From assembly GCF_900188125.1 (NCBI RefSeq), contig NZ_FZOW01000004.1, forward strand, positions 310,001 through 374,000: a stretch of DNA of 64,000 nucleotides, in the 5' to 3' direction. Shown here one piece after another: positions 16,249 to 17,001 of this stretch. Every line of letters begins with the position of its first letter. The stretch's first letter is position 1. Source of the stretch: Rhodococcoides kyotonense. Its GTDB lineage: Bacteria > Actinomycetota > Actinomycetes > Mycobacteriales > Mycobacteriaceae. The translations under genes were made by a program, and so were the position numbers. The notes beneath the pieces are model-generated. The model was not told the DNA's origin, did not search any database, and saw nothing but the letters and a program-made list of their open reading frames with translations.

Positions 16249-16713
16249 TTACTCCGTCATGACAAGTGCGGTCGCCACGGCGGCTATTCCTTCGCCGCGA
16301 CCGGTCAATCCCAATCCGTCGGTCGTCGTCGCGGACACCGACACAGGCGCTCCGAGCACCGCCGACAAAGTCTCCTGTGCCTCCACACGGCGTGGACCGA
16401 TCTTCGGACGATTGCCGATGATCTGCACGGCGGCGTTGCCGATCGTGAATCCGTTGTCGGTCAGCAGGCGTCGCACCTCGGTGAGCATGGCCGCGCCGCT
16501 GACGCCGTCCCACTCCGGTCGCCCGGTGCCGAAGACCGAACCGAGGTCACCGAGGCCTGCCGCGGACAACAATGCGTCGCACAGTGCGTGCGACGCGACA
16601 TCACCGTCGGAATGCCCTTCGAGTCCGTCGCCGTCCTCGAAGAGAAGGCCCGCAAGCCAACAGGGCCTGCCCGGCGCGATGGGATGGACGTCGGTTCCGA
16701 TACCGACTCTCAT
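16249..16713 (-). CDS. ispF: 2-C-methyl-D-erythritol 2,4-cyclodiphosphate synthase
   Basis: 154 residues, full length. Metal site in GIGTDVHPI (Asp8, His10 region), GHSDGDVASHALCDALL, and C-terminal TTTDGLGLTGRGEGIAA. It cyclises CDP-methylerythritol 2-phosphate in the MEP isoprenoid pathway. The start at 16713 gives MRVGIGTDVHP; its ATGA overlaps the surviving stop of the decayed ispD directly upstream. The gene itself looks intact, so the pathway is presumably still used with an IspD encoded elsewhere. Confidence 0.95.
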   Translation of the reverse strand: MRVGIGTDVHPIAPGRPCWLAGLLFEDGDGLEGHSDGDVASHALCDALLSAAGLGDLGSVFGTGRPEWDGVSGAAMLTEVRRLLTDNGFTIGNAAVQIIGNRPKIGPRRVEAQETLSAVLGAPVSVSATTTDGLGLTGRGEGIAAVATALVMTE

Positions 16714-17001
16714 GAATTCTCCTGACGGACCAGCGCTTCGGCCAGCAGCAGATCGTGTGGCGTCGTGATGTCGACCGACGCGAGAAAACAACGACGACCG
16801 AAAGCGACGACGACAGAAGCGCGGCGCGGGCAGCGTCGTGACCGAGCCGTGTCCGAGTTCGACCGCTAAAGACGGGTCTTCCCTCCCGCGGTCACGAAGA
16901 CTTTCGGCTCACCGAGTCCGAGCCGCAGACCTCGGCCCCGCCGCCGGAACGAACGCGACGACGGGACCTTGGATGAAACTTGCCACCTGAGCAGCCGTCA
17001 C
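16710..17001 (-). pseudogene. ispD: Decayed ispD (MEP cytidylyltransferase)
   Basis: Only about 290 bp remain where a gene of roughly 690 bp is expected. A GTG directly after the carD stop begins an IspD N-terminus ending VVAFVPAAG. A one-base insertion in a run of G residues near 16936 shifts the frame; the other frame then continues RGLRLGLGEPKVFVTAGGK, the nucleotide-binding loop, and ends at a TAG. The catalytic core is deleted. The last 24 codons read SVDITTPHDLLLAEALVRQ, the normal IspD C-terminus, and stop in the ATGA overlapping ispF. IspD is required for the MEP pathway, so another functional copy must exist in the genome or this assembly is wrong here. Confidence 0.82.

Follow-up and report, generated by a model that had tools for sequence, protein, structure and literature searches.

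The MEP pathway depends on IspD, an essential enzyme that has become a target in the design of antibacterials and herbicides. In the 64,000-nucleotide stretch of the Rhodococcoides kyotonense genome analysed here (the window), the usual site of ispD between carD and ispF is occupied by a short, broken remnant of the gene.

The ispD fossil between carD and ispF

The genes of the locus all lie on the minus strand. carD (17002..17490), an intact ORF of 162 aa which also served as the tblastn anchor for 60 loci, is the upstream neighbour; ispF (16249..16713, with its ATG at 16713) is likewise intact, in keeping with the view of the initial annotation that it looks functional. Only 288 bp separate the two genes, compared with 663-743 bp at the 30 loci measured among the 35 same-genus genomes with a canonical IspD, and with 685-757 bp in five other canonical genomes. 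The sole remnant of the canonical ispD is a fossil at 16710..17001, which was recognised by blastn against the ispD of a same-genus genome with canonical IspD (G006, the reference for the fossil pieces; the window's own genome is G000) and by alignment to three relatives.

Four pieces of IspD can be read in the fossil, all on the minus strand and collinear with the G006 protein. Residues 1-17 are at 16936..16986 (tblastn, 71% identity); residues 17-42 follow in another frame, with a stop codon near the end, at 16860..16937 (85%, E 1.9e-12); a weak trace of residues 104-122, including the HDAAR motif, is at 16790..16846 (63%, E 0.001); and residues 211-229 are at 16713..16769 (tblastn 84%, E 1.4e-8; blastn 86%), running into a TGA stop at 16710-16712 that overlaps the ispF ATG. 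In the blastn comparison of the gap with G006, the pieces scored 132 and 71.6 bits; the highest score from 100 mononucleotide shuffles was 28.3.

The initial annotation had proposed that ispD decayed at its normal site, through a one-base frameshift in a G run of the N-terminal part and a deletion of the core, with the C-terminus still overlapping ispF. The alignment of 16710-17001 to the related genes (G006 and the three relatives), which recovers collinear pieces in different frames, bears this out. The frame change sits at a G run that is one base longer in the window than in the three aligned relatives, and ~400 bp of ispD are missing. Beyond what the initial annotation had noted, there is the weak trace around HDAAR.

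An IspD-family pair on another contig

A second ispD, possibly acquired or relocated, had also been expected elsewhere in the genome. We searched the whole assembly (6.3 Mb in 50 contigs, rated 100% complete) with PF01128 and obtained four matches. Two are genes A (239 aa; contig C24 348593-349312, plus strand; 8593-9312 of locus L005) and B (230 aa; C24 349337-350029, minus strand; 9337-10029 of L005), which lie outside the window on a different contig and face each other. Both exceed the cut-off of 27 bits, A with 164.9 and B with 86.8. The other two are a 515-aa frame and a sub-threshold domain in a 736-aa frame, which we take to be GlmU-type and MobA-type, respectively. Besides the fossil, no canonical IspD was found on any contig with this profile, and a relocated ordinary ispD was rejected, since these four were the only matches. 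The expectation of a substitute thus held, but its form did not: in place of a relocated or second ordinary ispD there is an IspD-family pair, which has very probably replaced the canonical gene of the carD-ispF interval.

The same association is found beyond this genome. In a search of 37 genomes of the genus, including the window's own, canonical IspD was present in 35 (E 6e-63 or better). The two members without it, G000 and Rhodococcoides trifolii (G035), both have the A/B pair; in R. trifolii carD and ispF are 151 bp apart, and no remnant of IspD was visible between them. Among 401 genomes sampled from the Mycobacteriaceae, 25 have A: 20 with two IspD matches at E 1e-16 or better, and five more, all from genus g29 (in our reading Mycobacterium sensu lato), with one match in the score range of A. 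Ten genomes had no match, and 366 had a single match classed as canonical by score; the A genomes were chosen by match number and score.

B is present in 25/25 of the A genomes, adjacent to and convergent with A in 24 of them and 67 kb away in Williamsia sp. CHRR-6 (G053). All 25 have kept ispF, and all have lost ispD from between carD and ispF, the gap being 5-151 bp in 24 and the 288 bp described above in the window. None has a third, canonical IspD as judged by match count, and for the five genomes with one match at 1e-16 it is likewise the match count that indicates the lack of a canonical gene. HMG-CoA reductase was found in 0/25, on which ground a mevalonate bypass was rejected.

Complementary residue loss in A and B

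The active site of IspD lies at the interface of two monomers (PMC11796317). Canonical IspD is homodimeric, and both chains possess a CTP site as well as an arm; the arm, residues 137-159, links the homodimer and contains the MEP site, where Arg157 and Lys213 are close to MEP (PMC11770629). Thr140 touches two hydroxyls of methylerythritol, those at C1 and C3, and when its counterpart in a different species was replaced by an acidic residue, 75% or all of the activity was lost (PMC3111433). In the Bacillus subtilis enzyme, CTP is bound by Arg15, Lys22 and Lys209 (PMC5099578).

The alignment to E. coli IspD comprised 45 canonical sequences together with 93 of A and 101 of B, leaving out three short B rows (L207, L228, L229); an earlier alignment held 115 A and 103 B rows, 6 of the 103 being incomplete. 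The CTP loop residues G18, R20 and K27, together with K213, are present in 45/45 canonical and 93/93 A sequences. The P-loop (the CTP loop) is deleted in 101/101 B sequences, and neither K27 nor K213 occurs in any of the 103 B rows. At the arm, position 140 is T in all 45 canonical sequences, T in none of the 93 A sequences (V, L, A, I or M instead) and S or T in all 101 B sequences; K142 is kept in 45/45 canonical, 3/93 A and 101/101 B; and R157 in 45/45 canonical, 101/101 B and 6/115 A. At position 165, A sequences have T or S, and B sequences have Y, F, H or S. The degeneration of the two proteins is complementary: of the beta-arm residues A has lost T140 and mostly K142 and R157, and B has lost the P-loop, K27 and K213.

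The distribution of invariant columns has the same shape: in 22 B proteins there are 14, of which 11 are within residues 131-165, and in 24 A proteins there are none between residues 142 and 169. The old pocket of B has not been erased, since D106 is retained in 96/101, R85 in 87/101 and R109 in 25/101 sequences. On seven canonical control genomes the B profile gave one match each, at 118-151 bits. The B proteins of G329 and G393 score within this range, yet their genes are in convergent orientation with A, and both proteins have no P-loop and retain the arm arginine; in the B protein of G393 the arm aspartate adjoining R157 is replaced by the residue A.

Single-chain models agree in placing both proteins within the known fold. 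The AF2 model of B is a whole IspD fold (mean pLDDT 93.4; arm blocks 88, 95 and 87), with M. smegmatis IspD as its best PDB match (TM 0.83). The model of A (mean pLDDT 86.8) has its minimum in the arm (66, residues 161-170) and a P-loop block of 71, and best matches B. subtilis IspD with CTP (TM 0.81).

Structural work on E. coli IspD is said to have T140 and R157 supplied by the neighbouring chain, although an explicit statement that these two residues act across the dimer was not found in the IspD literature examined. Taken with the known role of the arm, this would make the residues lost by A the very ones that a partner supplies, and B a protein built as that partner. In such an arrangement, A would bind CTP and carry the catalytic basic residues, its own beta-arm being ruined, and B, without a CTP loop, would reach with its intact beta-arm into the active site of A and complete the MEP side. 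The two would then be obligate partners in a heterodimer whose single composite site is functional, where the IspD homodimer has two sites. We infer from the division of residues a physical and active dimer, the contribution of each chain and MEP as the substrate, and we regard it as probable that such an obligate heterodimer, its active site a composite of both chains, has replaced the homodimer.

Both genes are under purifying selection. Across 22 pairs, dN/dS is 0.10-0.28 for A (median 0.18) and 0.09-0.53 for B (median 0.30); B is thus constrained, if more loosely than A. Distances in the A and B trees are correlated over 84 unique pairs (r 0.82; 0/1000 permutations as high), a correlation to which shared species history contributes.

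The faster evolution of B is also what one might expect if A alone were a working homodimeric IspD with an altered arm, and B a co-inherited pseudoenzyme in an accessory or regulatory role. A does keep all of the CTP-binding residues, and among NCBI models IspD is its top-scoring one. We nonetheless consider this reading unlikely, because the arm residues that A has lost are kept in 45/45 canonical sequences and retained by B, and because B accompanies A in every one of the 25 genomes, even at a distance of 67 kb.

Much less probable still is that A and B make another CDP-polyol, in the manner of TarI, and that an unrelated, unrecognised enzyme performs the MEP step. Three A proteins fall below the cut-off of the NCBI ispD equivalog TIGR00453 (160.6, 152.4 and 154.3 bits; cut-off 181.3), and some records name A as IspD/TarI family. 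TarI, the ribitol-5-phosphate cytidylyltransferase, has the same fold, and A is similar to it below threshold. However, on the ribitol-phosphate model NF001183 (cut-off 166 bits) A scores even lower, at 95.2, 89.8 and 75.2 bits, and B gives 21 bits, 21 bits and no score, so that a TarI role for the pair is unsupported; moreover, A and B occur where ispD has been lost (25/25 in the family sample), in genomes without another IspD. That the window merely contains an assembly or sequencing error and ispD is actually intact is hardly credible: the frame change does sit in a G run, but ~400 bp are missing as well, no intact copy exists elsewhere in a genome rated as complete, and the loss of ispD at the same place in 24 further A/B genomes of the family makes such an error very unlikely.

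The heterodimer proposed here can be set against known departures from plain IspD. A and B have the fold and family (PF01128) of the canonical enzyme (E. coli 1I52/1INI, M. smegmatis 2XWL), but the residue sets that canonical IspD unites in each chain are on separate proteins. The IspDF fusion joins two enzymes (PMC11770629), whereas in A/B one active site would be divided. DXR-II is likewise a patchy replacement of a MEP-pathway enzyme accompanied by gene loss, but it is a single enzyme unrelated to DXR-I (PMC3847144); both members of the A/B pair are homologous to IspD and seemingly work only together. In the open-licence literature we found no account of an IspD that is split or heterodimeric, an absence that is weak evidence because only open-licence papers were covered. 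Variants of Dxr and Idi, along with IspDF fusions, are named in a 2026 review on the diversity of bacterial isoprenoids, but a split IspD is not, in the passages covered (PMC13001223).

Distribution and origin of the cassette

A class-wide draw of 394 genomes gave scores above 200 bits in 11 genomes, all Mycobacteriaceae, with the next best at 158. Among the best 80 of 425 relatives with A, 68 are titled Mycobacterium or Mycolicibacterium, and B adjoins A in 74/80 of these loci. The six that remain are Williamsia, with B elsewhere in the genome; L206, where A is at a contig end and B on another contig; two Kineosporia loci (L278, L282), with a B-like frame ~11 kb off; and two MAGs (L223, L237), where the B-like frame is convergent to A and diverged, and has kept the arm motif. 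In the deep B-like frames of these last four loci the P-loop is missing and a D-T-(V/L)-K ... (D/E)-R arm motif is present. In Williamsia sp. CHRR-6 (L289), B is ~1.6 kb downstream of ispF, outside the carD-ispF interval and 67 kb from A. The extra match of Kineosporia G759 falls on a frame of 547 aa, which we take to be a TarI-reductase fusion.

One exception was found to the mutual exclusion of A and a canonical gene. Nocardia amamiensis (L191, 2947-4639; L268) has a canonical IspD alongside an A and a B that are both diverged, possibly a transitional or redundant state, and is the only such case among 32 genomes inspected, 31 of them distinct (the 25 of the family sample and a second set of seven, with Hoyosella altamirensis, G100, counted in both). 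At the margins of the sample, the drafts G222, G238 and G252 have weak or partial matches only. In genus g3, the scores of G155 and G296 come close to those of A; G155 gave no match to the first B profile. No IspD match at 1e-16 was obtained in G068, G185, G244, G338, G362 and G366 (g3) and G186 (g4), which are rated 99-100% complete; G068, G185 and G186, searched at 1e-3, gave a GlmU-type match only. A scan of the genome contigs with B alone as the query gave no match.

A and B are convergent in 102/102 loci with both genes (some species being represented twice), their ends ranging from a 20 bp overlap to 355 bp apart and mostly overlapping or almost touching. In a FastTree phylogeny with E. 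coli as the sole outgroup, A (0.83) and B (1.0) are each monophyletic, and B forms one clade with the canonical actinobacterial genes (0.955), with A apart. This topology points to an origin of B from a canonical actinobacterial ispD, and of A from a more distant IspD.

Within the window's genus, the window genome is more similar to the canonical-bearing G036 and G006 (ispF identity 97% and 95%; carD 99% and 100%) than to the A/B-bearing R. trifolii (ispF 86%; carD 96%), and these identities suggest at least two losses of ispD in the genus. Our overall reading, to which we would give a probability of about 0.7, is that a homodimer became an obligate heterodimer by complementary loss: B would be a former canonical actinobacterial IspD reduced to a trans-acting arm, A a distant IspD reduced to the catalytic half, and their convergent cassette would have displaced ispD several times, at least twice in this genus by carD and ispF identity, and in Williamsia, Hoyosella and Mycobacterium/Mycolicibacterium. 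If so, this is a natural case of complementary degeneration making an obligate heterodimer from a homodimer, with intermediate states available for study in the window's fossil and in the coexisting canonical copy of N. amamiensis. Records for many Mycolicibacterium and related species that call A or B alone 'IspD' would then misdescribe what the activity needs.

A GAPDH gene adjoins the cassette in the window's own genome, and the matches of this gene in G006 (87%) and G036 (83%) stop ~270 bp before A, with the cassette absent; it was therefore either inserted in G000 or lost in G006 and G036. Transfer of the cassette is likely. A mobile vector was sought and none was found: B matched three of 72,556 plasmid records (tblastn), each at <60% identity and none covering >80% of the query, and A matched 18 of 50,697 phage records, all at <60% identity (29-33% among the ten matches listed). 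The Actinomycetes bacterium M1A6_2h has two different A/B pairs (P0052 with P0003, and P0053 with P0004), one trifolii-like and one like that of the window genome. The G000 pair is 71-72% (A) and 61% (B) identical to one of these, and 64% (A) and 46-48% (B) identical to the R. trifolii pair. Given the second, trifolii-like pair in M1A6_2h, an old duplication with differential loss is a further possibility.

Beside the cassette in the window's own genome there is a stretch of ~59 kb (C24 ~350338-409135; L005 10338-18000, L267, L265) bounded by a 43-bp repeat of the end of tRNA-Arg (acg). It abuts A/B, begins with a frame that by eye resembles a tyrosine recombinase, and is probably an integrated element.
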